Source: a virus
IMG/VR virus record: IMGVR_UViG_3300028840_003151
Span: 1 to 37,875 of that record
DNA length: 37,875 bases
Direction: 5' to 3' (one strand)
The position numbers were made by a program, and so were the translations under genes. Of the stretch, positions 2,294-33,884 are shown piece after piece; position 1 is the stretch's first letter, and each line of letters begins with the position of its first letter. Below the pieces are notes generated by a model. It saw only the letters and a program-made list of their open reading frames with translations. It had not been told where the DNA came from and did not search any database.

Positions 2294-2494
2294 ATGGACC
2301 CGAACGACTGCACCAACACAGAGACCGAGAGCCCCGAGCCGTGCCCTACGGCTCAGGAGCCCGGTAGCCCCGAGGCCGGACGGCAGTGGACCCTCACCGG
2401 CGAGCTCGTGGAGCGACGCCCGCAGGGACGGGGACGCCCCACACAAGGCAGCCTCGATGACCTTCTCAAGCTCGACGCCTGGCACAAGGCTTGA
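2294..2494 (+). CDS. Small acidic hypothetical protein, 66 aa
   Basis: ATG 2294 is preceded by a GGGGG run seven bases away. The protein is Thr/Glu/Pro-rich in its first half (residues about 6-31) and ends in an amphipathic stretch (GSLDDLLKLDAWHKA). The overlapping frame starting at 2289 is an Arg/Ser/Pro-rich shadow. It is the last gene of the short operon after the 1.6-kb promoter and before a 400-base noncoding region. No recognised family. Confidence 0.5.
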   Translation: MDPNDCTNTETESPEPCPTAQEPGSPEAGRQWTLTGELVERRPQGRGRPTQGSLDDLLKLDAWHKA

Positions 2495-2511
2495 CCCACA
2501 CTTGCCATAAC

Positions 2512-2539
2512 GGTTCACATAACGATTATTGTGCGAACC
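2512..2539. promoter_or_regulatory. 28-bp dyad, 11-6-11 architecture
   Basis: The left arm GGTTCACATAA and right arm TTGTGCGAACC match as inverted repeats at 9 of 11 positions around a 6-base centre. The layout recalls Xer/dif sites, and the left arm matches 9 of 11 bases of the E. coli XerC arm GGTGCGCATAA. With a dedicated integrase and a tRNA attP present, an operator for a dimeric regulator is at least as likely. Confidence 0.45.
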
Positions 2540-2540
2540 A

Positions 2541-2559
2541 TAGGCATGATTCACGCCTA
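2541..2559. promoter_or_regulatory. 19-bp palindrome next to the 28-bp dyad
   Basis: TAGGCATGATTCACGCCTA is self-complementary apart from three positions, the centre included, and begins one base after the preceding dyad. No T-run follows, so a terminator is unlikely. It is probably a second regulator site. Confidence 0.45.
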
Positions 2560-2866
2560 GCCCCTCACGCGACCACGCGCCCCCTGGCGCTCGCGCCCTG
2601 TGTCGCCAGTCTACAGTACCCACCCCCCTGCTGGAGTCTGGCGACACCATCCCCCCACCCCGGCGACCACGCGCGCCGCGCGCCGCGCCTGCGACGACGC
2701 GCACGGGGGGGTGGGGGACTTTTGAAAGCATACACATGTGAATGTTATAGGTCGCCGCGCGCAATTTTTGCTCAAAACGCCGAGTCCAGGCGTGGGGACC
2801 CCGAAAAGTGGCATATTCCTGGTCATAATTTCCGACGAGCTTGCGTGTTTGCGCAAGTTGTCGGGC
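2560..2866. other. Noncoding C-rich region with inverted repeat
   Basis: No gene is supported between 2495 and 3002. The C-rich, strand-asymmetric stretch holds a perfect 10-bp inverted repeat GTGTCGCCAG/CTGGCGACAC (2600-2609 / 2638-2647), the repeated block GCGACCACGCGC, and a short AT-richer part (about 2717-2750). At 2855-2865 lies AAGTTGTCGGG, identical to part of the operator region at 27954-27964. It may be a regulatory region or an accessory origin. Confidence 0.4.
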
Positions 2867-2885
2867 GGCTGGTGGTTCGCACTAT
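2867..2885 (+). promoter_or_regulatory. 19-bp element GGCTRGTGGTTCGYACTAT, copy 2
   Basis: 17 of 19 bases match the copy at 1572-1590. It ends six bases before the -35 hexamer of the 2.9-kb promoter, which is a typical position for an activator site. Confidence 0.5.
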
Positions 2886-2891
2886 TCGCTA

Positions 2892-2920
2892 TTGACAAGG
2901 CTTCGGCGTTGTGTTATGGT
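2892..2920 (+). promoter_or_regulatory. Presumed late promoter, sigma70 type
   Basis: TTGACA (2892-2897), 17-base spacer, TATGGT (2915-2920). The same -35, spacing and -10 occur in the rightward early promoter at 27967. Transcription would start near 2927 and run into the terminator at 2944-2992 before reaching the first late gene at 3002. All genes from 3002 to 25754 lie on this strand with no other strong promoter that I could see. Confidence 0.7.
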
Positions 2921-2943
2921 AACTGACAACAGAGGAACAGGCA

Positions 2944-2992
2944 CCGAAGCCCTTGACGGAGAGAGAATCAGTCGGGGGCTTCGGCTTTTTTT
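2944..2992 (+). terminator. Factor-independent terminator/attenuator between late promoter and late genes
   Basis: CCGAAGCCC (2944-2952) pairs perfectly with GGGCTTCGG (2976-2984), 23-base loop, followed by C and seven T (2986-2992). It lies only about 20 bases after the predicted transcription start and 10 bases before the first late gene. It would therefore yield a leader RNA of about 65 nt unless bypassed, as in late-gene antitermination. Confidence 0.75.
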
Positions 2993-3001
2993 GGGGGAAA
3001 G

Positions 3002-3505
3002 ATGGGGCGCTGGAAGGCAATGCTGGTAGCGATATTGAGCTACGTCGCAGGCGGGATAGTGGCGGCGGTAGCGGTGATGGCGCACGAGCGGATACAGCGG
3101 GCGGCGGTGAGGCCGAGGTACAAGGTAGAACAAGACTTCGAGATAGCGGGTGGGGTAGGGAGAGAGTTGCGTGGGGCGTGGCCGGAGGCGGAGGTGCGTG
3201 CGTGGGACGCGCGGTACTGGGGTTGCTCGATGAAGGACTGGCAAGGGGTGATAGCGGACGTGGTGCGGGACTTGCCGGTCTACAGGCAGGATCGGTTCGA
3301 CTGTGACAATTTCGCGGTGCTGTTCTCGGCGCTGGTGGCGCAGCGATACGGGCTGAATACGTGCGGGATAGCGGTAGGGACGAGTCCGGGAGGGCGCCAT
3401 GCGTGGAACGTGATCCGCGCTGAGGATGGGTGGCACAGCCTGGAGCCGCAGAACGGCAGGATAGACCCGAAAGGGTACCTGTGCGATTTCATCATCTGTG
3501 GGTAG
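3002..3505 (+). CDS. Membrane-anchored Cys-His (transglutaminase/papain-like) protein
   Basis: A 167-residue protein. Residues about 7-27 form one hydrophobic membrane segment after a short basic start (signal anchor). The rest carries a motif set that looks catalytic: DCDNFA with Cys101, GGRHAWNV with His133, and SLEPQNG with Glu148. A homologue with the same three motifs sits at 24707. The Cys-x(31)-His arrangement suggests a transglutaminase-like or papain-like fold acting outside the membrane, possibly in cell-wall attack or remodelling. It is the first late gene, followed 23 bases later by a holin-like gene, so a lysis or wall role is plausible. No catalytic activity can be proven from the sequence. 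Confidence 0.6.
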   Translation: MGRWKAMLVAILSYVAGGIVAAVAVMAHERIQRAAVRPRYKVEQDFEIAGGVGRELRGAWPEAEVRAWDARYWGCSMKDWQGVIADVVRDLPVYRQDRFDCDNFAVLFSALVAQRYGLNTCGIAVGTSPGGRHAWNVIRAEDGWHSLEPQNGRIDPKGYLCDFIICG

Positions 3506-3528
3506 TACGGCAGGAAGGAGGGCAAGTT

Positions 3529-3963
3529 GTGAAGAGGCGAAGGTACGGGGCGAAGCTGTGGTTTGGGGTGTTCATCGTGTGCCTGGTGCTGGCGGTGGCG
3601 AGCGTGGTGGCGATGGGCATCGCGGTGGTCGCCGACGAGGGCGCCGGTGGCAGTGGGGGGACGAATTGGGTGGCGGTGGTGACCGGCGTGGGGACGGTGC
3701 TGTTCGGCGCGCTATCGGGCCTGTTCGGGGTGAAATGGCGACAGGGCGTCAAGTTCCTCAAAGAAACCTCGGAGGCGTTGGTGGCGGTCGGTCTATGCGG
3801 CGCGGCGATGGCGACGGTGCTGGAGAAACCTGGCGACGCGACAGCAGAGCAGATATCGGCGTTACTGGACGAGGTTCGGCGAGTCGGCACTGAGTTCAAA
3901 GAGGCGATCCAGGCCGGCAAAGACTTCTTCCAGTCATTTCACAAGGTCCAACTTCGAGAGTAG
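3529..3963 (+). CDS. Holin-like membrane protein, 144 aa
   Basis: GTG 3529 is chosen because AGGAGG (3516-3521) lies seven bases upstream; longer in-frame versions overlap the preceding gene. The protein starts MKRRRYG, followed by membrane segment 1 (about residues 8-34), a short Gly/Ser-rich turn, membrane segment 2 (about 45-69) and a charged helical C-terminal half ending in EFKEAIQAGKDFFQSFH. Two membrane spans with a basic N-terminus fit a class II holin or a small-molecule-type phage membrane protein. It pairs with the Cys-His protein upstream. A second candidate holin lies at 25425, so which protein controls lysis is uncertain. Confidence 0.55.
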   Translation: MKRRRYGAKLWFGVFIVCLVLAVASVVAMGIAVVADEGAGGSGGTNWVAVVTGVGTVLFGALSGLFGVKWRQGVKFLKETSEALVAVGLCGAAMATVLEKPGDATAEQISALLDEVRRVGTEFKEAIQAGKDFFQSFHKVQLRE

Positions 3964-3996
3964 CCGTCCGTGCCCTGCCGACGGTTATTTCAAAGA

Positions 3997-4030
3997 GGGA
4001 GTCCCCGGCTGACCGTCCCCGGGGACTCCC
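3997..4030. terminator. Strong intergenic hairpin without T-run
   Basis: GGGAGTCCCCGG (3997-4008) pairs perfectly with CCGGGGACTCCC (4019-4030), loop of 10. No U-tract follows on either strand. It may be a pause, processing or mRNA-stability element between the holin-like gene and the SpeD gene and not a true terminator. Confidence 0.4.
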
Positions 4031-4088
4031 CCAGCCCCCGATAATCGCGTTGAAGTATTGGCTGGAGGGTTGCACATGGAGGAACCCG

Positions 4089-4457
4089 ATGCACCTGCGG
4101 ATAGACGGGTACGCGCGGAACGAAGGGCTCCTGACGGACGTCGCGGTGCTCGCCGCATGGCTGGAGGCCTGCGTGTTCTTTATCGGCATGACGGTGATCG
4201 CGGCGCCGCGGGTCGTGGCGTTCCCCGGGTCCAATGGTGGGGACATGACGCAGAAGCCGGGGCTATCGGGCGACGTGATATTGGCCGAGAGCGGCGTCAT
4301 GGTGCATACCTGGCCGGAGTACGGACTGGTGATGCTGGACATATTCAGTTGCAGGCGGTTTGACGTCGACGGCACCGTAGCGTTCGTCGAGAAGAGCTTT
4401 GACATGGTTGACTGTCGATGGGATTGGACACTGCGGCCCCTGGGAATCGAGGTATAG
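4089..4457 (+). CDS. speD-like: S-adenosylmethionine decarboxylase family (SpeD-like pyruvoyl enzyme), 122 aa
   Basis: ATG 4089 follows GGAGG (4078-4082) by six bases and puts the family N-terminus (HLRIDGYA) at the protein start; the open frame extends upstream to TTG 4050. The core matches the AdoMetDC signature: LAESGVMVHTWPEYG, then DIFSC. In this family the chain cuts itself before a Ser to make the pyruvoyl group: here Glu67-Ser68. His73, Glu77 and Cys88 fall at +5, +9 and +20, as in the T. maritima enzyme (Ser63, His68, Glu72, Cys83). The residue after the Ser, usually His, is Gly69. SAM decarboxylases make the aminopropyl donor for spermidine; some homologues, phage ones included, decarboxylate arginine or ornithine. 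Its stop directly abuts the terminase small-subunit ATG. Confidence 0.85.
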   Translation: MHLRIDGYARNEGLLTDVAVLAAWLEACVFFIGMTVIAAPRVVAFPGSNGGDMTQKPGLSGDVILAESGVMVHTWPEYGLVMLDIFSCRRFDVDGTVAFVEKSFDMVDCRWDWTLRPLGIEV

Positions 4458-4961
4458 ATGGCGAGACACAGGCCGGGGAGGTCCAAGAAGCGCAAGGCGG
4501 TTGAATCGGCACAGCGGCAGTGGGCAGAGGTGCTGGTCAAAGACCTTGTACTGGAGGGTCCGGAAGAGCGGCAGGAGGTCAAGCGGAAAGTGCTGGAGGC
4601 CCTGGCGCGCGGAATCCCCACGTTGACTGAGGCTTGCGAGTACGCCGGTGTGTCGAAGGTGCAGTTCTACAAGTGGCGCAAAGACGACCCGGCATTCGAG
4701 GATGGCATCGGGCGTGTGACTGAGGCGGTCAACGAGCGGCTCGAAAAGACGGCGCTGGAGATCGCGCTCGACGAGCGCGACGGGAAGATGATCCGGTTCC
4801 TGCTGCGCACGAGGATGCCGCATCACTACAGCGAGAGAATCGGCATTTTTGGTGAGATCCGCCACGACATACAGACGGTTGAGATAGTGAAGGAAGGCCC
4901 AATCTATGACGCAGATGCTCGAGTTATCGACGACGAGCGCCAAATCGTCGCCCCCTTCTGA
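4458..4961 (+). CDS. terS: Terminase small subunit
   Basis: A 167-residue protein with a basic N-terminus (MARHRPGRSKKRK) and a helix-turn-helix at about residues 54-75, TLTEACEYAGVSKVQFYKWR, followed by DPAF. This pattern is characteristic of small terminase subunits that recognise the packaging site. The rest is helical (ERLEKTALEIALDERD), suiting ring assembly. Its start immediately follows the SpeD stop codon and its 3' end overlaps the large-subunit gene by 56 bases, typical of terminase pairs. Confidence 0.85.
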   Translation: MARHRPGRSKKRKAVESAQRQWAEVLVKDLVLEGPEERQEVKRKVLEALARGIPTLTEACEYAGVSKVQFYKWRKDDPAFEDGIGRVTEAVNERLEKTALEIALDERDGKMIRFLLRTRMPHHYSERIGIFGEIRHDIQTVEIVKEGPIYDADARVIDDERQIVAPF

Positions 4962-6219
4962 GATTCCCCCATTTCGACAGATCGATGGGAAGAAGCTCGT
5001 ACTGCATTTCCATGCCGGCCAGACTAGGGCTTGGGAGTCCGAGGCGCGGTTCCCCATGCTGTTCGGAGGCACACAGGTCGGCAAGACGTGTTTCGCTCCG
5101 CACTGGCTCGACCGTGAAATCAAGCGGGAGGGACCCGGTGACTACTTGGCGATCACGGCCACGTTTCCCCTGCTGAAGCTGAAACTTCTTCCTGAGTTCC
5201 TCTACGTGTTCGACACCCTGTTCCACTACGGGTCCTACAACGCTTCGGACAGAGTGTTCTATTTCCGCGACGGCAAGACCAGGGTCATCTTCGGCTCAGC
5301 CACGAATCCAGAGAGCATCGAGAGTGCCACGGCCAAGGCGGCGATCCTGGACGAGATCGGGCAGAAGCAGTTCCGGCGCGGTGCTTGGGAAGCCGTGCTG
5401 CGGCGCCTCTCGCTGAACCAGGGGCGGGCGCTCGGTACCACGACGCTGTATCAACTCGGCTGGCTCAAGAACGAGGTGTACGACAGGTGGCTGAAAGGCG
5501 ACAAGTCGTATGACGTGATCCAGGTAGACTCCATTGTGAACCCGGCGTTTCCTCGGCAAGAGTACCATCGCGCGAAGGCGACGCTTCCGCGATGGAAGTT
5601 CAACCTGTTCTATCGCGGCCGCTACGACAAGCCTGCTGGCCTCATCTATGACGCCTTCGACGAGGACGTCTGCAAGATTCCGCGCCACGACATTCCGAAG
5701 GACTGGCCCAGGTATGTCGGTATGGACTTCGGTGGCGCCAACACCGCAGCCATGTTCTACGCACTGAATCCCTATACCGGGGAGTTGACGGCCTACCGCG
5801 AATACCTGTGCGGCGGCAAGTCCGCGGAAGGGCACGCTGAGAGCCTTCAGGAAGAGAGCTTGGGCGAACGAATAACCAAGATCGCTGGCGGCGCACCACA
5901 CGAGGACGGCTGGCGCGAGGCTTTCACCCGGGCCGGTTGGCACGTTGTCAAGCCGAGGGAGAAGAGCGTCGCCACTGGCATCGACCGCGTGTATGCCTTT
6001 CACAAGCGGGACGGGCTCTATGTGTTCGACGACTTGGACAACTATCTCGACGAGAAGCAGACGTACAGCTACAAGCTGGACGATAAGTACGAGCCCACCG
6101 ATGAGATCGAGGACAAGGCGCGGTTTCACCTCATGGATGCGGAGCGATACATCATCTCGGAGTTCCGGCCGGAATTGGCGGAGGCTGGCCGCCGGGCGCA
6201 AGTCTGGCGGTACGGATAG
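4906..6219 (+). CDS. terL: Terminase large subunit
   Basis: A 437-residue packaging motor. Walker A is GGTQVGKT (54-61), Walker B is AILDE (146-150) with the catalytic Glu150, and a coupling motif TTTLY follows near 178-182. The nuclease domain begins with YVGMDFGGAN, where Asp274 is the first metal ligand. The length is slightly short for the family but both domains are present. It translocates DNA into the prohead and cuts it at the end of packaging. The ATG at 4906 lies inside the small-subunit gene. Whether packaging is headful or cohesive-end cannot be decided from this sequence. Confidence 0.93.
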   Translation: MTQMLELSTTSAKSSPPSEIPPFRQIDGKKLVLHFHAGQTRAWESEARFPMLFGGTQVGKTCFAPHWLDREIKREGPGDYLAITATFPLLKLKLLPEFLYVFDTLFHYGSYNASDRVFYFRDGKTRVIFGSATNPESIESATAKAAILDEIGQKQFRRGAWEAVLRRLSLNQGRALGTTTLYQLGWLKNEVYDRWLKGDKSYDVIQVDSIVNPAFPRQEYHRAKATLPRWKFNLFYRGRYDKPAGLIYDAFDEDVCKIPRHDIPKDWPRYVGMDFGGANTAAMFYALNPYTGELTAYREYLCGGKSAEGHAESLQEESLGERITKIAGGAPHEDGWREAFTRAGWHVVKPREKSVATGIDRVYAFHKRDGLYVFDDLDNYLDEKQTYSYKLDDKYEPTDEIEDKARFHLMDAERYIISEFRPELAEAGRRAQVWRYG

Positions 6220-6230
6220 GAGTCTGAGAA

Positions 6231-7943
6231 ATGGCAATAGACTACAAAAAGCTCTTCGAGGAGAAGTTCAGCGGCGACTTGATGGCGCTCTACTCGCGCA
6301 TGGACCGGGACAAGGACCTGTACTACCTCAAGCGGTTCATCATGACCAACAGTCAGGGGGAGGTCGTTCCCGACGTCGAGAATGTCACCCTCAACGACCC
6401 GTTCCTGTATGCCCATAAGGTAATCGCGGCAATCACTGGCGCCGCAATGCAGACTATCGTCGAGAGCCAGACACTGAAGGACAACAAGACGAGCCACATA
6501 GAGCAGTTCCTTCGAGATCTGTCGGCGATGGTGGACCTGCGCCTGTTGAACCGCGAGGTCGTCGGCCTGTTCGCCTGGGCCGCAGAGCACGTCAGCGTCC
6601 GGGGACGGCTCGCGGCCAGAGTGTATCTGCGCATGGAGAAGGGGCAGTTCGTTCCGGATATTCTACCGATCGACGCTCGGTATTTTGCCTACGAGCGGTC
6701 GAGCGACGGCTTCCTGTGGGGCGGCTACAAGACGCCGAGGTCGGCAGCGGCGATCAAGAGGGAATACAACATCGACTTGAAGCAGGACGAGAAGAAGGCC
6801 GACGTCATAGACGTATGGGATGAGGACAGGAATGTAACCTACGTCGATGATGAGAAAGTCAGGGACGTCAAGAACCCCCTGGGCTATCCGCCGTTCGTGG
6901 TCGCCATGTCGACGAGCGGCTCAATGCTCCAGGACGAGGACAGCCTCGAGCACTCGGGCGAGTCGATCTTTGCCGCGAATCGGGACCTCTACAAACAGTT
7001 GAACCTCGCCGCCACCATACTCCAGACGCTCAACGTAATGAGCTTTCGCGGACCCATGCAGTATGAGAGTGACGCCGGCACTGCTGCTGAGAAGCCGCCG
7101 CAGCCGCCCTATGGCGTCGGCGCCGTGATCCCCGTGGAGAAGGATGCCGGCTACAAGGCGATGCCGATACAGGATATTCGGCAGGCTACACGCATCTTCT
7201 ACGCCATACTCGACTCCAGGCTTCAGCGCGGCAGTCTACCGACCATAGACTACGGCACGCTCACATTCCCGTTGTCAGCCGTCGCCATCACTCAGCTCAC
7301 CGCCTCAAAGAACGAGGTTTTCGTGCCGCTCCTCCAAGGTATTGCTCTCTTCCTCCAGGGCGTGTTCAACATGGCGATCCGTCAGTACCGCGATGCGAAG
7401 ATGAAGGTGAAGCTAGGCGAGCAGGGCTTGGGGCGGGAGTACAACTGGAAGGAGTTGGACGGCGACTATCAGCTCCGCTACAAGTTCTGGGCGAAGCTGC
7501 CCGAGCAGGACGTCGCAAACTACGCGATTGCGCAGGCAGCGAGCGCCTGGTACGGACGCGAGAAGATCCTCAGGGACATTCTCTCCACCGACAACCCTGC
7601 CTCGGAGTTGGCAGCCTGGTACGCCGACCAGGTGGAGCGCGACGATGTGGCAGTGCGAATGTACCGCAGGGCCTCGAAGTTGATCGAGCAGGGGAACGAC
7701 ATCGAGGCGAGAATGGTCGCCAACTCGCTGCGGCTCGTGTTGCGGAAGCGAAGGGTCGGCCAGGCCCCGCCGGAAGAGCCGTCGCCAGAGAAGATCGGAG
7801 CCCTTGCCGGCGGCAACGGACAGGGGTTGCTACCGCTTTTGGGTGGACCCGGCGGCAGTAGCGGAACCAAAGGACGTCCGGAACTCGAGGGATTGAGCCC
7901 CGACGTCAAGGCGATCGAAGCGGAGAAGGAGGGCCTGCCGTGA
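6231..7943 (+). CDS. Portal protein
   Basis: A 570-residue protein directly after the large terminase, with AGGAG eleven bases upstream of the ATG. The sequence has portal-like traits: N-terminal helical region, a beta-rich body (residues about 125-235), a long helical stem region (SIFAANRDLYKQLNLAATILQ) and a C-terminal helical, then Pro/Gly-rich tail (about 515-570). Length and position are normal for a dodecameric portal forming the DNA entry vertex. I infer the assignment mainly from synteny (TerL-portal) and fold character; no short signature motif is decisive. Confidence 0.8.
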   Translation: MAIDYKKLFEEKFSGDLMALYSRMDRDKDLYYLKRFIMTNSQGEVVPDVENVTLNDPFLYAHKVIAAITGAAMQTIVESQTLKDNKTSHIEQFLRDLSAMVDLRLLNREVVGLFAWAAEHVSVRGRLAARVYLRMEKGQFVPDILPIDARYFAYERSSDGFLWGGYKTPRSAAAIKREYNIDLKQDEKKADVIDVWDEDRNVTYVDDEKVRDVKNPLGYPPFVVAMSTSGSMLQDEDSLEHSGESIFAANRDLYKQLNLAATILQTLNVMSFRGPMQYESDAGTAAEKPPQPPYGVGAVIPVEKDAGYKAMPIQDIRQATRIFYAILDSRLQRGSLPTIDYGTLTFPLSAVAITQLTASKNEVFVPLLQGIALFLQGVFNMAIRQYRDAKMKVKLGEQGLGREYNWKELDGDYQLRYKFWAKLPEQDVANYAIAQAASAWYGREKILRDILSTDNPASELAAWYADQVERDDVAVRMYRRASKLIEQGNDIEARMVANSLRLVLRKRRVGQAPPEEPSPEKIGALAGGNGQGLLPLLGGPGGSSGTKGRPELEGLSPDVKAIEAEKEGLP

Positions 7944-8116
7944 AGAAGCTGACCCAAGAAGAGCTCGACAAGATGGTCCTCGATGAACTCGTCGGAAAGC
8001 CAGGCACTACAGCGCAAGGCGGAGCTCTGCAGAGGCTTCTTGCCAGAGCCCGCGGTGGCACACCGCCGCCAGGCAGCGAAGTCGTAGCTGAATCGGAGGC
8101 CGAAACAGCGACATGA
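7940..8116 (+). CDS. Small hypothetical virion-operon protein, 58 aa
   Basis: GTG 7940 overlaps the portal stop as GTGA, and its own stop TGA (8114-8116) overlaps the ATG of the giant gene as ATGA, so it is coupled on both sides. The protein begins MKKLTQEELDKMVLDELVGK, an amphipathic helix, then turns Gly/Pro-rich and ends in an acidic stretch. Helical charged mini-proteins at this position may be chaperones or head-assembly factors, but I do not recognise this one. The tight fit between two genes supports it as real. Confidence 0.7.
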   Translation: MKKLTQEELDKMVLDELVGKPGTTAQGGALQRLLARARGGTPPPGSEVVAESEAETAT

Positions 8117-11100
8117 ACAGCGACGATATCCGGAACATACTCAAGAAGTATGGCGGTGGTCTTCAGGAGACGCGGGAACTGATCGCGGAGGTCAACCGGC
8201 ATCTCGCCACCGCTGTCGCGCCGGAGAGTTTGCTCACGGGGCCAGCGGTCCTCGGACCCGAAGAGGCGGCTGACCTTGGCATCGAGTTGGACGAGGGGTG
8301 GCAGTTGAAGGTCACGCCTGACTCGTCGCAACGCGGGTTCAGCGTCAGCTATGTTACCCCCGAATCATGGGAGATCACCGACCTGGGTGAGTATATCTCG
8401 CCCGAGGGACAGGTCTACACTGAGGCCGAGCTGCGGTCTCTCGGTGGCGAACAGGAGCCGATTCTCACGGGCTTTTTCGAGGGGCCGGAGCCAGCAGCCA
8501 TCCCCACAGAGGGATGGCTTGCCGAGCCCACGACCGCGATGCCAGCGGAAGTCCAGGAGGCGTTCACGGCAGTATTCCCGGAAACTGACCTGATCACGCT
8601 CCTGGAGTACGCGGAACAGCAACCCGAGGCTTTCTACACGGACATAGTGGCCGAAGGCCGAAGCGCCGAAACCGAGGCCCTGCTGCGCGCCATGTACCCC
8701 GAAATCAGCGAGGCGGACCTTCAAGAGATCTTCGCCCCCTATGCAGTGCAGACAGCGCAATGGCACAAGCTCACCGAGCAACGTCCGGCGTGGGCTGCCG
8801 CCGCGCCCCCACCGCTCGACTTGGGCGCAGCCGCAGCCATGGTGCTGGGCCACCTTGGCGGATTCCTCGAGAAGTACATCGACCGGCCCTATGAGACTGC
8901 CGCTATGGAAGTGCTCATGCGGTCCGTAGTCAGCCAAGCGCAGTATGACATACGGGCTCCAGAGTATGTCGGCCAGGCGAAGGACGCTGAGAAGATTCTG
9001 AGCGTGCTCGAAGAGAACCGCCAGAAGTACGGCGTGCTGGGCTCGTTCTTCTCGGACGAGGCGAACAACGCATGGGAGACCGTTGCCAGGGAGGAGGCCG
9101 GGCTCGGTGGTATGGTTACACTCCTGCCCTGGACCAACCCAGCATACACAATTCCAATCGGCAGTAGCTTCGGTCTCGCCGCCAGGTGGACCACGAAGGT
9201 CCCCATTCTGGGCAAGGCTCTGGAATACACGGCTGCCGGGGTACAGGCAATCGAGGCAGGCGTAGTCAAGCCAGTGGCCGTCGCTGCACAAGCTGCGGTG
9301 AAAGGCCTCAACAGAGTCGGCGTCGAGTTGGGGGAGCAGGCGGCGAAGCAACTGATTAAGCGGTCGAGGAATCTGGAGGCGCTTCTCGACTTGCCGACCA
9401 CGGAGGCCATCATAGAGGCCGCGCTCGTCGATAACTGGATGAAGCGCACGCTCCAAGTGGCCGCGAAGATCAAGCCGATTCGTTTGGGCATCGAGAAGAG
9501 CCTCGGCTGGCGCATCCTTGTCAAGCGCGAAGGCCAGCTCATCGAGGACATAGTGGGCCAGGCCGCCGTCGCGCACTCCGAGGTGCTGCGCCGCGGAATC
9601 AACGCACGTGCCGTCAAGTATTGGGAGCTCCAGTCCATCGTCGATGACCCCATCAAGTATTTCGGCTTCAACGAGGACGCGATCTCGCAGAAGATGATTG
9701 ACCGCCTGCTTCCCGAATACCGAGGGCTGCCCGAGGCAGGCACACTTGAGCACGTTTTCACAAAGCCGGAAATGTATAACTGGACCGGCATGGAGCGAGG
9801 CCTGGAGTACGTGACGAGGGTTCACGAGGTCAACAACCAAGTCCTGACGTTGTTGCGAAACGAGGGCGTTCCCCCTGAGGGAATCCTTGAGGACTGGTGG
9901 ATTCACCGCGTCGTCGAGGGCAAGTTCGACGCCAACGGCGAACTTGTGCGAGTGCGTGGCCGGACCGGCGGGGCGCGTGGGCGGATCGGCGCGCGTCTGA
10001 GCTACGAGCTGAGGCGCAAGGCTCCCACCATGGCGGAGGGGATAGCCTGGGGTATCAAATACAACCGCAGTCCACAGGTGAGCGTTGGGAGCTACATCGA
10101 GCAAGCGTTCAAGAAGATTGCCGACGAACGGTTCGTCAAGTACGTCAGCGAGTCGCTCGCCGCGATCAAGGAGCCGTTCGGCTTGACGCCATCAGAGCTC
10201 CTTGCGCGCCGGTACCCGCAGCTACTCGAGGAAGTGGAAACCGCCGCTGGACGTCAGTTGGTGCAAAAGGCTGTGCTCAGGGCCGACGAGCTGCAGCACG
10301 TCAATCACTTCGCCAGCGCAATTCAGCGAGCGATTCGCGGCGAGAAATTGCCCTCCTCCACCTTGCGCGCGATCGAGCGGCGTTTCCCGGGCCTGGGCAA
10401 CAGGTTCCGGAATCTGGTGCAGACGCAGAGCGTAGGCGAGACTCAGCTACGCGAAGTGATCGCCAAGAATCAGCGGCTTGTTGATAGCCTCTATCGGCAG
10501 CTCGAAAAGGCCAAAGCCCTTGACATTTCAGCGATCGAGCTCAAAGCGCGCGAGAAGGCCATGGCGGACCTGCGCACTCTGAGCAGGGACCGCCCTGCCT
10601 TGCCCCCCAGGGACAAGCTCACGGAAGCGTTCTGGCTCATGGAGGAAGAGGATCGGCGAGCCTTTCGCCTCACCATGCAGGACCAGGGTGCCGAGATCCA
10701 GGAAATCATCGAGAAGTACAGCGCAGAGCTTGGCGCCCTCGACGACTTCCTCAGCACGGACTTAGTTGCTCAGTTCCGGGGAACAATGGGGAAGCGGCGC
10801 ATGAGCCTCACGAGCATACTGACCAAGGAAGGCGAATGGCCAGAGACTCTGACCAGAAAGCAGGCCGAGGTGATTATGCTAGGACGAGAAGTCAAGCCAT
10901 CGTCCCTTACGCCAGAGGGCCGCGTCAAGTGGGAATACGTTCTCGATGAACTGGCCGACGAGTTCAACATGTCGGAGCAAGAGCTGATCGAGGCGATAGA
11001 GCACATTCGGCTGGCGAAGAACCAGCAGCGAGATTTTCAGATGTTGCTACGCGATGCCGAGAACAGGGAGAAGCGGCTCCGCTATATGCTTGACGTCCTG

Positions 11101-14100
11101 GACGACGCCGACGCTGGCCCGCGGGCGCGAGTCGCAGTGGACACCGTAGAGGGTACGCCCGCGGTCCCGACCGAGGCGACGGAGCCCCTGATTCAGCCAA
11201 AGCCTGCCGAGGCCATCCCGAAGGCTGAGGCTGGCGAACTCGAGGCCGGCGTACAGAAAGATATCTTCGGCTACGAAACGCCCGTCTACCCGAAGGGCAA
11301 GGCCGAAGTGACGCAAATGTCCATGGACGATCTCTCGAAGCTCGAGCAGTGGCGGAAAGACGCCGGTTTGCCGCCACCCGAAGTCGCTGTCAAGCCTGAG
11401 ATAGAGGGCATTCCGAGCGTGGAAGCCGAAGCGCTGAAGCCAGCCCCAGTCAAGCGTGTTGCGTACGAGATTCCTCCAGAGAGCAAAGGGATCAATGAAG
11501 TCGTTGGCTATACGACACATACATATGAGCGGCAGGCTTACACGTACCAAAGAGGAGGGAAAACGATAAGCGTTCCTGCTAAGACCATTACGACTAAGAA
11601 GCCTGTTACCGCCGGTGAGCAACTGTTGGAGGAAGTCAATGCGGTGGTAACGGCGAGGAAGGGAGCCTACTGGCAGGCCAGAGCGGAGCGCAAGATAGCC
11701 ATGGAGAAGGTGCGTCGGCCGGAGATCGGCAAGGGCTACATCATGCAGCCGTTCGCTGGAGGCAAAATCTTCGACCAGGAGTTCATCGACGCCTTCAACA
11801 AGTTCTTCGGGTGGGACAAGGGCCTGGGAGTGCTCCGCGCAACGAGCGACGTCGCGGGCATCATGAGGATCACGAAGGCCGCTCTCGACCTGTCAATGAT
11901 GGCGATTCAGGGGATGCCCGCTTGGGGACTGGCACACGCCTATCTGCTCATAGACCCGAAGATTGGAGCCGAGTTGACCGGCGCCTGGTATCGGGCTTTC
12001 CTCCATTCGTGCGAGTCGTTCTTCCATCCGAGCACGTTGGCGTCGTTCATGGCGAAGAACGAAGAGATTGCGCTACAGCGCATCGCTATGGGTGGGTCGT
12101 CACGAGCTGTTGACTACTTCGCCACGCTGGAGGCTCGGACTGGCCTCGGTGGGTGGGCCGAGAAAGCGATGGCGAAGATACCGTTGAAGCCGTACCACCG
12201 GGCCGAGATCGCGTTCTACGGCGCCGGCGAAATGGTGCGAAATGAGTTCTGGAGAATCCTCTCACCCAAGGCAATCAAATCGGGCCAGGAGTTCGAGCTG
12301 GCGCGCTTCCTGGACAGAATCACCGGCATCATCGACCCGGCCACGATTGGAGTGCCGCTCACGGTGCGACAACTCGAGCAGACGTTCGGGTGGTTCGCAC
12401 CAGCCTACACCCGCGCCTGCCTCACGGTTGTTGCTGACATCTTCCGCGGCGGCTACACCGGGCACATGGCCCGCCGTGCGATAGGTGGCATGATCGGTGC
12501 TGGCGCCATGTACTTTGCCGGTGTGCAATTCTCCGCTGCGCTGCTGGAGGGCAAGAGCGCGGAGCAGGCATGGAACACGGTGCTGGAGGGCTTTGGCTTG
12601 ACTCAGGACCCGATCACCGGGACCTGGGAATGGAGGCCCACCGGAGCGTTTATGACCATGAAAGTCGGCAACTATCGGTTCGGCTTCGGCGGCTTCTGGT
12701 ATGGGCTGCTGCGATTGGCCGGCAACATAAGCGCGTGCGTCAATGAAGTGGGCGGCAAAGAACGAATCGACCTGGTGCGTCTGCTCAAGTACGGGTCCTT
12801 CAACAAGAAGGACAATCCGTTCATCTACTGGTGGTACAGCCGGTCGTCACCCCTGGTCGGATTCGGTTTCGACCTTGCCAGTGGTCAGGACTTCCTTGGC
12901 TACCCGATAGAGACTCCCATGGACTATGCGCAGTATATCCTCACGCGGTTCGAGCCGATCTGGATGGAACAGGGCCTCAATCCGCTCATTCCCGGGTTGG
13001 GTCGGGACCATGAGGTACCCGAGGGCGCGGCCCGGGCGGCGGTCATTCCGGCCGAGATCTTCGGACTGCGGACATTCCCCGAGAGTGGGTGGGTGAAGTT
13101 CTACGACAAGGCTCTTGAGTACATTGGGCGGATGCCGGCCACGGAACTCGATGAGAAGCAGATGGCCGCATGGCGCGAGGGCACATTGGGCTGGAACCAA
13201 CTGTCGGAGATCCAGCGGACGCGCCTACTCACGCGCTATCCCGACCTCAATGAGCTGTACGAAGAGGCCCAGGCCGACAGCGCCGTTCGCAGCAGTCCTC
13301 AATGGGCCGCATGGTCGAAGAGAGTTGACGAAGAGAGAGCGACCTACTACGAGCGCATCAACGACCTGACGGACCTCTTGATTCGCGGCGAAATCAACAC
13401 GCAGGAGTACAGGGAGAAGGCTGGCGAGGCCGGCTCAAACTACTACGCGATAATGGCGGCTCTCGAAAGGGACCCGGCCTACGCCGATATCTACGACTAT
13501 TTCGCCAAGAAGGAGGCCGAGGGCGACAAGTATGGGTTCAAGGACGATATCGCGCTGGCCGAGTATCAGAGCTACATACAGTTCGCGGAGGTAGTCGATG
13601 AGCACGGCGACCCCGATTGGGACGAGCGGGACCGACGAGTCGACGAGTTCATTGAGGAGTGGGGCGAGGACGTCTACCAGCGCATCCAGCAGTATCTCCA
13701 GGACGAGCGGAAGCTGAAAGGCCTCAATGAGGTTTGGGTGAGGAGGTCGAAGGATAGCGAAGCCCTGGGGAGAGCATACTGGAGGCTTCCGTACAAGCCG
13801 GTCATCGAAATGGACGATGAGGACCTTGCAGACGGCGCGATTCCGGGCGAGTACGTTGACCTCTGGAATGCCTACCAGCGACTTGAAACCGACGAAGAGC
13901 GAGAGGCTTTCCTTCGCACGTATCCCGACATGGCGAAGAACTGGCGCCAAGACTATCGCCGTGAGCACCCCGAGGATGATGCACGGCTCGCCCTGTGGGG
14001 GTACGGCGGCAAGCTTCAAAGCATGAGGGCTTATGAACTCGTGGTTCAGTGGGCCGAAGAGCTCGGCCTATCGCTCGACAACCTGGGCCTGGGCCTGCCG

Positions 14101-14496
14101 CCCAAGAGTCTCATAGGAAACTACTTCGAGTACAACGACATTGTGGCGCAGTACGGCGGCTCGAGTGTTGAGGCCAAGTGGTACAGGCTCGAGCACGAGA
14201 AATGGGAGGCGTGGGGCCAGGAACACTATGGCTGGACAGCAATCAGCCAACAGGGGGTGATGCCGAGGAATGTCTATAGCCAGTATCAAGAGTACCAGTC
14301 AAAGCCGAAGGGTCAAGCCAGGTTAGTCTATCGCCACGAGCACCCGGAACTGGAGCGATACCTGGTCGAAGAGAAGGGCTACACGCCGGTAGGCGACAGG
14401 TGGAAAACAGGCGAAGGTGGTGGAGGTGGCTCGCAGGCTGAGACTCCCTGGACAGAATTGGAGGAAATCGAAGAGTTCAAAGAGCTCTTCGAATAG
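8113..14496 (+). CDS. Giant 2127-aa virion-associated protein (polyvalent / internal virion type)
   Basis: One uninterrupted frame covers 17 percent of the genome. It contains an acidic Pro/Ala-rich N-terminal part (1 to about 240), a hydrophobic Ala/Gly-rich stretch (about 335-400), a long helical part (about 800-1010), a Pro/Glu-rich linker (about 1010-1150), and a conserved-looking domain (about 1205-1500) with YIMQPFAGG, MMAIQGMPAWGLAHAYLL and a possible membrane helix IGGMIGAGAMYFAGVQF. The acidic C-terminal part repeats motifs such as YRREHPE and YRHEHPE. This composition resembles large polyvalent or internal virion proteins of podoviruses that are ejected with DNA. Its position between portal and scaffold supports a virion role. 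A Gly-rich run (GEGGGGGS) precedes an acidic tail. Confidence 0.65.
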   Translation: MNSDDIRNILKKYGGGLQETRELIAEVNRHLATAVAPESLLTGPAVLGPEEAADLGIELDEGWQLKVTPDSSQRGFSVSYVTPESWEITDLGEYISPEGQVYTEAELRSLGGEQEPILTGFFEGPEPAAIPTEGWLAEPTTAMPAEVQEAFTAVFPETDLITLLEYAEQQPEAFYTDIVAEGRSAETEALLRAMYPEISEADLQEIFAPYAVQTAQWHKLTEQRPAWAAAAPPPLDLGAAAAMVLGHLGGFLEKYIDRPYETAAMEVLMRSVVSQAQYDIRAPEYVGQAKDAEKILSVLEENRQKYGVLGSFFSDEANNAWETVAREEAGLGGMVTLLPWTNPAYTIPIGSSFGLAARWTTKVPILGKALEYTAAGVQAIEAGVVKPVAVAAQAAVKGLNRVGVELGEQAAKQLIKRSRNLEALLDLPTTEAIIEAALVDNWMKRTLQVAAKIKPIRLGIEKSLGWRILVKREGQLIEDIVGQAAVAHSEVLRRGINARAVKYWELQSIVDDPIKYFGFNEDAISQKMIDRLLPEYRGLPEAGTLEHVFTKPEMYNWTGMERGLEYVTRVHEVNNQVLTLLRNEGVPPEGILEDWWIHRVVEGKFDANGELVRVRGRTGGARGRIGARLSYELRRKAPTMAEGIAWGIKYNRSPQVSVGSYIEQAFKKIADERFVKYVSESLAAIKEPFGLTPSELLARRYPQLLEEVETAAGRQLVQKAVLRADELQHVNHFASAIQRAIRGEKLPSSTLRAIERRFPGLGNRFRNLVQTQSVGETQLREVIAKNQRLVDSLYRQLEKAKALDISAIELKAREKAMADLRTLSRDRPALPPRDKLTEAFWLMEEEDRRAFRLTMQDQGAEIQEIIEKYSAELGALDDFLSTDLVAQFRGTMGKRRMSLTSILTKEGEWPETLTRKQAEVIMLGREVKPSSLTPEGRVKWEYVLDELADEFNMSEQELIEAIEHIRLAKNQQRDFQMLLRDAENREKRLRYMLDVLDDADAGPRARVAVDTVEGTPAVPTEATEPLIQPKPAEAIPKAEAGELEAGVQKDIFGYETPVYPKGKAEVTQMSMDDLSKLEQWRKDAGLPPPEVAVKPEIEGIPSVEAEALKPAPVKRVAYEIPPESKGINEVVGYTTHTYERQAYTYQRGGKTISVPAKTITTKKPVTAGEQLLEEVNAVVTARKGAYWQARAERKIAMEKVRRPEIGKGYIMQPFAGGKIFDQEFIDAFNKFFGWDKGLGVLRATSDVAGIMRITKAALDLSMMAIQGMPAWGLAHAYLLIDPKIGAELTGAWYRAFLHSCESFFHPSTLASFMAKNEEIALQRIAMGGSSRAVDYFATLEARTGLGGWAEKAMAKIPLKPYHRAEIAFYGAGEMVRNEFWRILSPKAIKSGQEFELARFLDRITGIIDPATIGVPLTVRQLEQTFGWFAPAYTRACLTVVADIFRGGYTGHMARRAIGGMIGAGAMYFAGVQFSAALLEGKSAEQAWNTVLEGFGLTQDPITGTWEWRPTGAFMTMKVGNYRFGFGGFWYGLLRLAGNISACVNEVGGKERIDLVRLLKYGSFNKKDNPFIYWWYSRSSPLVGFGFDLASGQDFLGYPIETPMDYAQYILTRFEPIWMEQGLNPLIPGLGRDHEVPEGAARAAVIPAEIFGLRTFPESGWVKFYDKALEYIGRMPATELDEKQMAAWREGTLGWNQLSEIQRTRLLTRYPDLNELYEEAQADSAVRSSPQWAAWSKRVDEERATYYERINDLTDLLIRGEINTQEYREKAGEAGSNYYAIMAALERDPAYADIYDYFAKKEAEGDKYGFKDDIALAEYQSYIQFAEVVDEHGDPDWDERDRRVDEFIEEWGEDVYQRIQQYLQDERKLKGLNEVWVRRSKDSEALGRAYWRLPYKPVIEMDDEDLADGAIPGEYVDLWNAYQRLETDEEREAFLRTYPDMAKNWRQDYRREHPEDDARLALWGYGGKLQSMRAYELVVQWAEELGLSLDNLGLGLPPKSLIGNYFEYNDIVAQYGGSSVEAKWYRLEHEKWEAWGQEHYGWTAISQQGVMPRNVYSQYQEYQSKPKGQARLVYRHEHPELERYLVEEKGYTPVGDRWKTGEGGGGGSQAETPWTELEEIEEFKELFE

Positions 14497-29235: not shown

Positions 29236-29931
29236 ATGCGTCAAGTGAAAACACAGAAAGCCTTGGATGCAGCCATTAAGAAGGGCGAAATCGTCCGCGT
29301 CAAGTCGGGTTTGTATTGTATCTCCGGCAACGCCAGGGTGTACGCCTACGGCAACGCCAGGGTGGACGCCTCCGGCAACGCCAGGGTGGACGCCTCCGGC
29401 AACGCCAGGGTGGACGCCTCCGGCAACGCCAGTGTGTACGCCTCCGGCAACGCCAGTGTGTACGCCTCCGGCTATAGTGCCGCAGTCAGGCGGTCAGCGC
29501 AGGCGGAGTGCCGAGGGAATGTATTGGATTTAACGACCCGCCCAGAGACAGTGGAGCAATGGCTAGCACGTTACCACGTCGCATTCCATGATGGCCTACC
29601 ACTGCTCTACAAAGCTACTCATGCGAATTATGCGACCCAGAACGGTGTCAGCTATGTTCCTGGCACCGACGTTGTGGCACCGGATTGGGAAGACCGTTCA
29701 GACATCGAGTGCGGCAGCGGCCTACATTTCTGCTGGTGCGCAGCAGCCTGTCGACAGTTCAACCGAGAGCCAGCGCACTTCATAGCCTGCCAAGTGGCTA
29801 TCGAGGACATACGCATCTACGATGGCCAGCCACAATGGCCCGACAAAATCCGGGCGCGAGCATGCCGAGCGCTGTATGAATGCGATGAGGATGGGAATCG
29901 AGTTGCCAAGGAGGAAGGAGCAGGGCAATGA
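29236..29931 (+). CDS. Octapeptide-repeat protein with C-terminal conserved domain, 231 aa
   Basis: ATG 29236 with AAAGGAG eight bases upstream. Residues 31-78 are six tandem octapeptides, such as GNARVDAS and GNASVYAS, which suits a left-handed beta-helix or a repeat-capping stack. Residues about 95-215 form a mixed domain with YKATHANYATQNGVSYVPG and ECGSGLHFCW, a pattern common in phage proteins that carry such repeats (like DUF7666). The repeats could bind surface or DNA; no enzyme residues are evident. The repeats are also a nearly identical 24-bp tandem array. Confidence 0.65.
   Translation: MRQVKTQKALDAAIKKGEIVRVKSGLYCISGNARVYAYGNARVDASGNARVDASGNARVDASGNASVYASGNASVYASGYSAAVRRSAQAECRGNVLDLTTRPETVEQWLARYHVAFHDGLPLLYKATHANYATQNGVSYVPGTDVVAPDWEDRSDIECGSGLHFCWCAAACRQFNREPAHFIACQVAIEDIRIYDGQPQWPDKIRARACRALYECDEDGNRVAKEEGAGQ
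29326..29469 (+). repeat. Six tandem 24-bp repeats (in-frame minisatellite)
   Basis: Six consecutive 24-bp units (29326-29349, 29350-29373, 29374-29397, 29398-29421, 29422-29445, 29446-29469). Units 2-4 are identical to one another and units 5-6 are identical to one another; copy-number change would stay in frame. Confidence 0.9.
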
Positions 29932-32954: not shown

Positions 32955-33032
32955 AACAGTCCTGGGGGGTAGGTTTTGCTGGTGGTGCGGTGGGCCTGCC
33001 CCCCCAGGGGGAATCCAGAATGGAGGCAGGGC

Positions 33033-33884
33033 ATGGACTACGCGAAGGGACTGAACAAGACCAGTATCCAGACGACCGACTTCACGATCAGCCCTGTTAC
33101 CGGCTGTCTCCGCGGTTGCTCCTACTGCTATGCGAGGGACTTGGCTGAGACCCGCCTGGGGAAGAGGTATCTGGCCAACAGCATCGCCATCCAACCCGAC
33201 CCGCTGAGGACTAGCGAGGCGTGGGAGGCCCTGTGGCAGCGAAGCCACGACGACCCGTTCTACCCGAGACTGTGGACGGAGCGTGCTGGACCGCTGCGGG
33301 TCTCACGCAACTTCCGGAGTCGCAATTCCTATCTGCCCCAAGGCAGCGCCATGGTGTTCGTGGTCGACATGGGCGATCTCTTCGGACCCTGGCTTTCGGA
33401 CACCCTAGTCCGAAACATCGTGTCCATCATGTGCAGAGAGAATCGGCGCCATGTGCTCCAATTCCTCACGAAGTACCCGGAGAGGCTGCCAGAGTTCAAC
33501 CCCTGGCCGCACAACGCCTGGGTGGGCGCGACGGCGACGAGGCCAGGAGAGGTCGTAGGGGCCTGCCAGGAGCTCCGGCGCGTGTACGCGGACGTCCGGT
33601 ACCTGTCGATCGAGCCGATGATCGGCGACCAGTGGAAGCACTCGGATCTCGTCGAAGACATGGACGGCGTGGTCGATTGGGTGATCATCGGGCAAATGAC
33701 CGGTCGGCATGCTTCCGAGGCGACGCGCATCGACGCGAAGCAACTAGAGCCGCTCGTAGAACAGTGCGAGCGCGTCGGCGCCAGGGTGTTCATCAAGAAC
33801 AACGTGCATGAGGGCGCGCTGGTCAACCTGAGAAGACCGCTTGAAACCTTCCCGTACACGAGGACGCCGCGGGATGGTTGCTGA
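33033..33884 (+). CDS. Gp37/Gp68-type protein with radical-SAM-like Cys motif (DUF5131), 283 aa
   Basis: ATG 33033 after GGAGG (33022-33026); the open frame extends upstream but has no better start. Motif TGCLRGCSYCYAR has Cys25, Cys29 and Cys32 in the CxxxCxxC order of radical-SAM enzymes, with downstream strands (VFVVDMGDLFG, LQFLTKYPERL, VGATAT, YLSIEPMIGD, WVIIGQMTGR) matching the phage Gp37/Gp68 family of partial TIM barrels. Substrate unknown. It is followed by a run of short overlapping genes. Confidence 0.8.
   Translation: MDYAKGLNKTSIQTTDFTISPVTGCLRGCSYCYARDLAETRLGKRYLANSIAIQPDPLRTSEAWEALWQRSHDDPFYPRLWTERAGPLRVSRNFRSRNSYLPQGSAMVFVVDMGDLFGPWLSDTLVRNIVSIMCRENRRHVLQFLTKYPERLPEFNPWPHNAWVGATATRPGEVVGACQELRRVYADVRYLSIEPMIGDQWKHSDLVEDMDGVVDWVIIGQMTGRHASEATRIDAKQLEPLVEQCERVGARVFIKNNVHEGALVNLRRPLETFPYTRTPRDGC

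Follow-up and report, generated by a model that had tools for sequence, protein, structure and literature searches.

A SpeD-family decarboxylase homologue abutting the terminase genes of a phage, and similar arrangements in other viral contigs

The window, that is, the whole stretch of DNA analysed here, is the 37,875-nt IMG/VR virus record IMGVR_UViG_3300028840_003151. Its two ends carry an identical, exact repeat of 144 bp, and we therefore regard the record as a complete phage genome of roughly 37.7 kb. Pfam and PHROG matches identify a P22-like coat protein, RusA, a primase zinc finger and a terminase. On the plus strand, positions 4089–4457 encode a 122-amino-acid SpeD homologue (AdoMet_dc, class 1b; Pfam, AlphaFold and PDB matches), which opens a gene run in the order SpeD–TerS–TerL–probable portal. 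The SpeD ATG begins 5 nt past the end of a GGAGG Shine–Dalgarno-like sequence (4079–4083, plus strand). Its TAG stop codon (4455–4457) lies immediately 5′ of the ATG (4458) of the terminase small subunit gene (TerS; 4458–4961, plus strand; PHROG terminase small subunit, 2.4e-7), such that stop and start touch as the original prediction had described, and a Shine–Dalgarno-like GAGG for TerS is located within the 3′ end of SpeD. The terminase large subunit (TerL; 4906–6219, plus strand; phrog_2, 2.4e-22) has relatives of 56–61% identity. The following gene (6231–7943, plus strand) has no match in Pfam or PHROG and is probably the portal gene, as suggested by its position and by the gene at the same place in relatives, where a homologue follows TerL (L019–L029). 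The codon-position GC of SpeD (0.63/0.42/0.82) resembles that of the neighbouring genes, which argues that the frame is coding.

The 125-nt gap preceding SpeD contains a perfect 12-bp hairpin with a 10-nt loop (3997–4030, plus strand; sequence and predicted fold), which marks the start of the SpeD–TerS–TerL unit. This is the sole perfect 12-bp hairpin with a 3–12-nt loop genome-wide; 20 first-order Markov sequences gave an expectation of roughly 0.15. Promoter and terminator scans upstream of SpeD gave no match. As the hairpin has no T run, it is perhaps a regulatory or packaging site. Elsewhere in the genome, a 2127-aa open reading frame between the probable portal and scaffold genes (8113–14496) has no Pfam match and has homologues in L025 and L029. 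Another open reading frame (29236–29931), with weak matches to baseplate-like proteins and DUF7666, contains in-frame 24-bp tandem repeats (29298–29489). A DUF5131 gene (32976–33884) has a similar-looking counterpart in the SpeD-bearing contig L007 (8973–9866).

The window SpeD belongs to the AdoMetDC family, in agreement with the original prediction. It matches Pfam AdoMet_dc (PF02675) with E=5.5e-18 and 65.7 bits, above the cut-off of 25, and PHROG SAM-decarboxylase families match it too. Against the NCBIfam equivalog TIGR03330 it scores 46.8 bits, under the cut-off of 75.65, and it thus falls inside the family but outside the curated SAM-decarboxylase equivalog. An AlphaFold model built from an alignment of 58 homologues has a pLDDT of 94.6, and PDB matches to the model with E<0.001 are exclusively class 1b AdoMetDC (TM 0.71–0.75). 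One of these, T. maritima TM0655 (PDB 1tlu/1vr7), a class 1b AdoMetDC, has the same fold (TM 0.75, 2.0 Å) and shares the Glu-Ser cleavage site, the His, the Cys and the HTWPE loop. The two proteins are 23% identical in the structural alignment, and the window SpeD differs in having Gly rather than His after the Ser, roughly ten extra residues before the GLSG strand, and FSC-R-x-FD in place of FTCG.

The catalytic set named in the original prediction (Glu67-Ser68, His73, Glu77 and Cys88) is present at those positions, with G69 after the Ser and W75-P76 before Glu77. Ser68, His73, Asp84 and Cys88 are invariant in the alignment of 58 homologues, and Glu67 and Glu77 are kept. These residues, together with the fold, suggest that the protein is a decarboxylase of the class 1b AdoMetDC/SpeD type that processes itself and works through a pyruvoyl group. 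The proenzyme would cleave itself at Glu67-Ser68, turning Ser68 into that group, and cleavage and catalysis would involve His73 and Cys88. Residue 69 is unusual, as previously remarked: His follows the Ser in 80/80 of the IMG/VR matches read for the pattern ES-x-x-x-[IVM]-HTWPE...D-x-F, and the window SpeD has Gly. Gly is also found there in other phage proteins (L007, L076 and L210), and Ser in L027 and in L047, which is archaeal. A Gly where His is near-constant might lower or alter activity, and one explanation holds that the fold is catalytically dead or repurposed, serving as a binding protein (for SAM or a host enzyme, for example) or as a partner of the host SpeD. The rapid divergence of the window protein, which lies on a long branch and is 43% identical to its nearest homologue (L032), would fit such a loss, as would the rarity of Gly69 and the existence of phage SpeD variants that have no Glu before the Ser, some of which form a tandem pair with a canonical SpeD. 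Set against this are the family-invariant Ser68, His73 and Cys88, the retained Glu67 and Glu77, and the confidently predicted fold, and we consider a protein with no decarboxylase activity improbable. Among the variants themselves, five viral contigs (L089, L105, L172, L190 and L252) carry a tandem SpeD pair in which a Glu-less form (IETS...H) adjoins a canonical SpeD. Others are of a TTSH type at the cleavage site (L003/L013; L015, 5429–6804) and lie within a conserved trio behind tail genes, consisting of a 178–190-aa gene, the SpeD variant and a 130–132-aa gene.

Phage and cellular SpeD homologues can have SAM, arginine or ornithine as their substrate (PMC9992855, PMC10407285), which bears out the earlier statement that some phage homologues use arginine or ornithine. 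To place the window SpeD, we built profiles of two family halves. The amino-acid half comprises V. chlorellavorus SpeD2, an assayed arginine decarboxylase (PMC10407285) that we recognised from its species and gene cluster, together with related proteins. The SAM half includes four proteins reported to be active on SAM (those of S-PM2, phiYS40 and P2559S, and V. chlorellavorus SpeD1). The window SpeD scored 94.8 bits against the arginine-decarboxylase half and 49.1 bits against the SAM half, and 65.9 versus 12.6 bits with the active-site loop masked; leave-one-out controls assigned all 38/38 proteins correctly (13/13 and 25/25). The protein also has the GMT, Pro40, long linker and FSC+xFD of SpeDA/SpeDC (PMC10407285). 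Many of 43 cellular homologues fetched by similarity adjoin agmatinase, and the SpeD genes of L032 and L047 additionally adjoin a deoxyhypusine-synthase-family gene; both kinds of neighbour are the published context of arginine decarboxylases. The earlier default, that the enzyme makes decarboxylated SAM for spermidine, is accordingly not supported as a default, given that the scaffold sides by score with the proteins that include an assayed arginine decarboxylase and many agmatinase-adjoining homologues, and that the trees conflict.

The active-site loop points the other way. Its sequence, HTWPEYG, is SAM-type and keeps the HTWP and Tyr-Gly, unlike that of V. chlorellavorus SpeD2 (HSFID). Pro76 is present in this loop; the Pro of HTWP is reported as non-conserved in SpeDA, not as absent (PMC10407285), and the phiYS40 SAM enzyme has no such Pro (HYWID). 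Four residues are diagnostic of SpeDC, namely Gln, Thr, Phe and Tyr (Fig. 8 of PMC10407285), and Trp75 would speak against the Phe if the Phe belongs at that place in the loop. The window SpeD therefore seems to join an amino-acid-decarboxylase-like scaffold to a SAM-type loop with Gly69, a combination that is new.

Phylogenetic analysis gave conflicting answers as to the half. A first tree set it within the amino-acid half with support of 95/95, and a second tree did likewise. Placement in the SAM half nevertheless survived two AU tests (p 0.64 and 0.36), and in the densest tree the window SpeD fell in a phage clade (with L027, L211, L222 and L225) whose sister group, at moderate support, is the SAM half. 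We do not trust the first tree on its own, since a constrained tree did better in the AU test and the window SpeD changed place in the denser tree.

The pyruvoyl arginine and ornithine decarboxylases of pelagiphage HTVC201P and a Lake Baikal phage (PMC9992855), compared here by description only, are small (117–122 aa) like the window SpeD, and these homologues do not replace E. coli SpeD (PMC9992855). Croceibacter phage P2559S encodes a SAM-type SpeD (gp67) that, like the window gene, lies near TerL (gp01): read across the record ends, SpeD is followed by one gene and then TerL, the intervening gene being annotated as RNase E (phrog_645) and not TerS. A further phage record, L004 (MW495066, Microcystis phage MaAM05), contains at 2477–5255 a speD-speD-speE-speB cluster that is almost the same as the one in Vampirovibrio chlorellavorus (L057/L058; speD 99%), and this record may be partly bacterial.

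Should the window SpeD be a bona fide SAM decarboxylase, its decarboxylated SAM would pass to the host spermidine synthase and yield more spermidine late in infection. The HTWPEYG loop, the AU tests and the densest tree are compatible with this, as are the P2559S SpeD, which restored spermidine in E. coli (PMC9992855), and the SAM-type SpeD of L226/L227, which abuts TerL. Conversely, the profiles prefer the other half by 45.7 bits, or by 53 with the loop masked, the TIGR03330 score is under its cut-off, Gly69 replaces the His, and the spermidine synthase that the original prediction proposed to look for is not recognisable in the phage genome. That search likewise found no recognisable arginase/agmatinase or deoxyhypusine-synthase-family (homospermidine-synthase-like) gene in the window, and use of the product would thus depend on a host pathway. 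Weighing the profiles and gene neighbours against the SAM-type loop and the conflicting trees, we lean towards arginine or ornithine as the most likely substrate, with about an even chance of being correct, and retain SAM as the main alternative, a substantial possibility that we rate below even. The original prediction had left the substrate open, and sequence alone indeed does not settle it.

The arrangement beside the terminase is not confined to the window. Besides the window, SpeD abuts a terminase gene in four types of viral contig, drawn from both family halves. In L027/L028, found among the relatives of the window TerL, a SpeD homologue lies between a TerS-like gene and TerL and overlaps TerL by 4 nt. 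The other three types emerged from SpeD-based searches: in L207 the SpeD stop overlaps the TerL start by 4 nt, in L210 it shares 4 nt with the beginning of a TerS-like gene, TerL being 0.9 kb further on, and in L226/L227 a SAM-type SpeD has a 4-nt overlap with a TerL of roughly 530 aa. The L210 protein carries ESG and HTWPEY, as the window SpeD does. L225 and L017 carry SpeD after the portal gene, within the head module. A DNA-pattern scan of IMG/VR gave a match in four contigs. Because the SpeD proteins of L226/L227 and the window belong to different parts of the family and adjoin different terminases, the linkage most likely has more than one origin.

We assessed this abutment in a small sample, the 19 contigs in which TerL was clear, omitting the window and L027/L028 because they had not been found blindly. 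SpeD lay within 50 bp of TerL in three of the 19, against 0.14 expected under random placement (p 0.0004), and merging near-duplicates left two abutting cases against 0.11 expected (p 0.006). Enrichment of SpeD within 1 or 2.5 kb of TerL was not significant among these contigs. The TerL counts are lower bounds, because phrog_2 alone was used and the TerL of L027/L028 was missed by it. The proposition that every phage SpeD adjoins a terminase was rejected, the two genes being more than 10 kb apart in 13/19 contigs.

These data bear on the view that the adjacency has no function, SpeD being a mobile accessory gene that settled at a permissive spot by TerS, whatever its substrate. SpeD is absent beside TerL in 11/13 TerL relatives (some of these contigs have short flanks), its position varies from before TerS in the window to the TerS–TerL interval in L027/L028, and in L007 it is 24 kb away. 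Against a chance insertion stand the recurrent 4-nt overlaps in the contigs from the SpeD-based searches (L207, L210 and L226/L227) and an abutment above random placement, which holds with near-duplicates merged. We give a functionless adjacency close to an even prospect. The link to packaging that was originally suggested has thus gained comparative support from repeated terminase coupling in other phages, and its functional side stays conjectural.

Our preferred reading, which we consider reasonably probable, is that the window SpeD is a self-processing decarboxylase that leads the packaging run and raises polyamine supply at the time of packaging. The gene order suggests that co-translation with TerS would tie SpeD synthesis to packaging time, and with SpeD leading the late packaging run, polyamine supply may rise during DNA packaging. 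With arginine or ornithine as substrate, agmatine or putrescine would be passed to host enzymes. A phage-driven rise in putrescine is reported to help Pseudomonas phage JBD44 (PMC11898732); this case makes the packaging–polyamine idea plausible by analogy and provides no evidence on the window SpeD itself. A wider proposal, which we regard as tentative and rather unlikely, is that unrelated tailed phages have repeatedly recruited SpeD-fold decarboxylases of differing substrate into the packaging operon, coupled translationally to TerS or TerL, such that counter-ion supply would keep in step with the motor. Under this proposal the window enzyme would represent a phage-specific subgroup that has Gly or Ser as the residue following the pyruvoyl Ser and is intermediate between the two family halves.

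The SpeD family, phage SpeDs and substrate-shifted phage members are already published. Full-text literature searches found no report of SpeD–terminase coupling: a virosphere paper on phage SpeD leaves the terminase unmentioned, and one on alphaproteobacterial phages refers to the enzyme without a terminase link. What is new here is the repeated apparent coupling of SpeD to terminase genes.

Polyamines neutralise packaged phage DNA, and the host is thought to be the main source from which phages take them. A decarboxylase gene repeatedly wired to the terminase would allow a direct genetic approach to the question of whether phages produce packaging counter-ions themselves. With its mixed scaffold and loop, the window SpeD is a useful test of substrate determinants in the family, and recurrence in unrelated viruses makes the link between polyamines and packaging testable.
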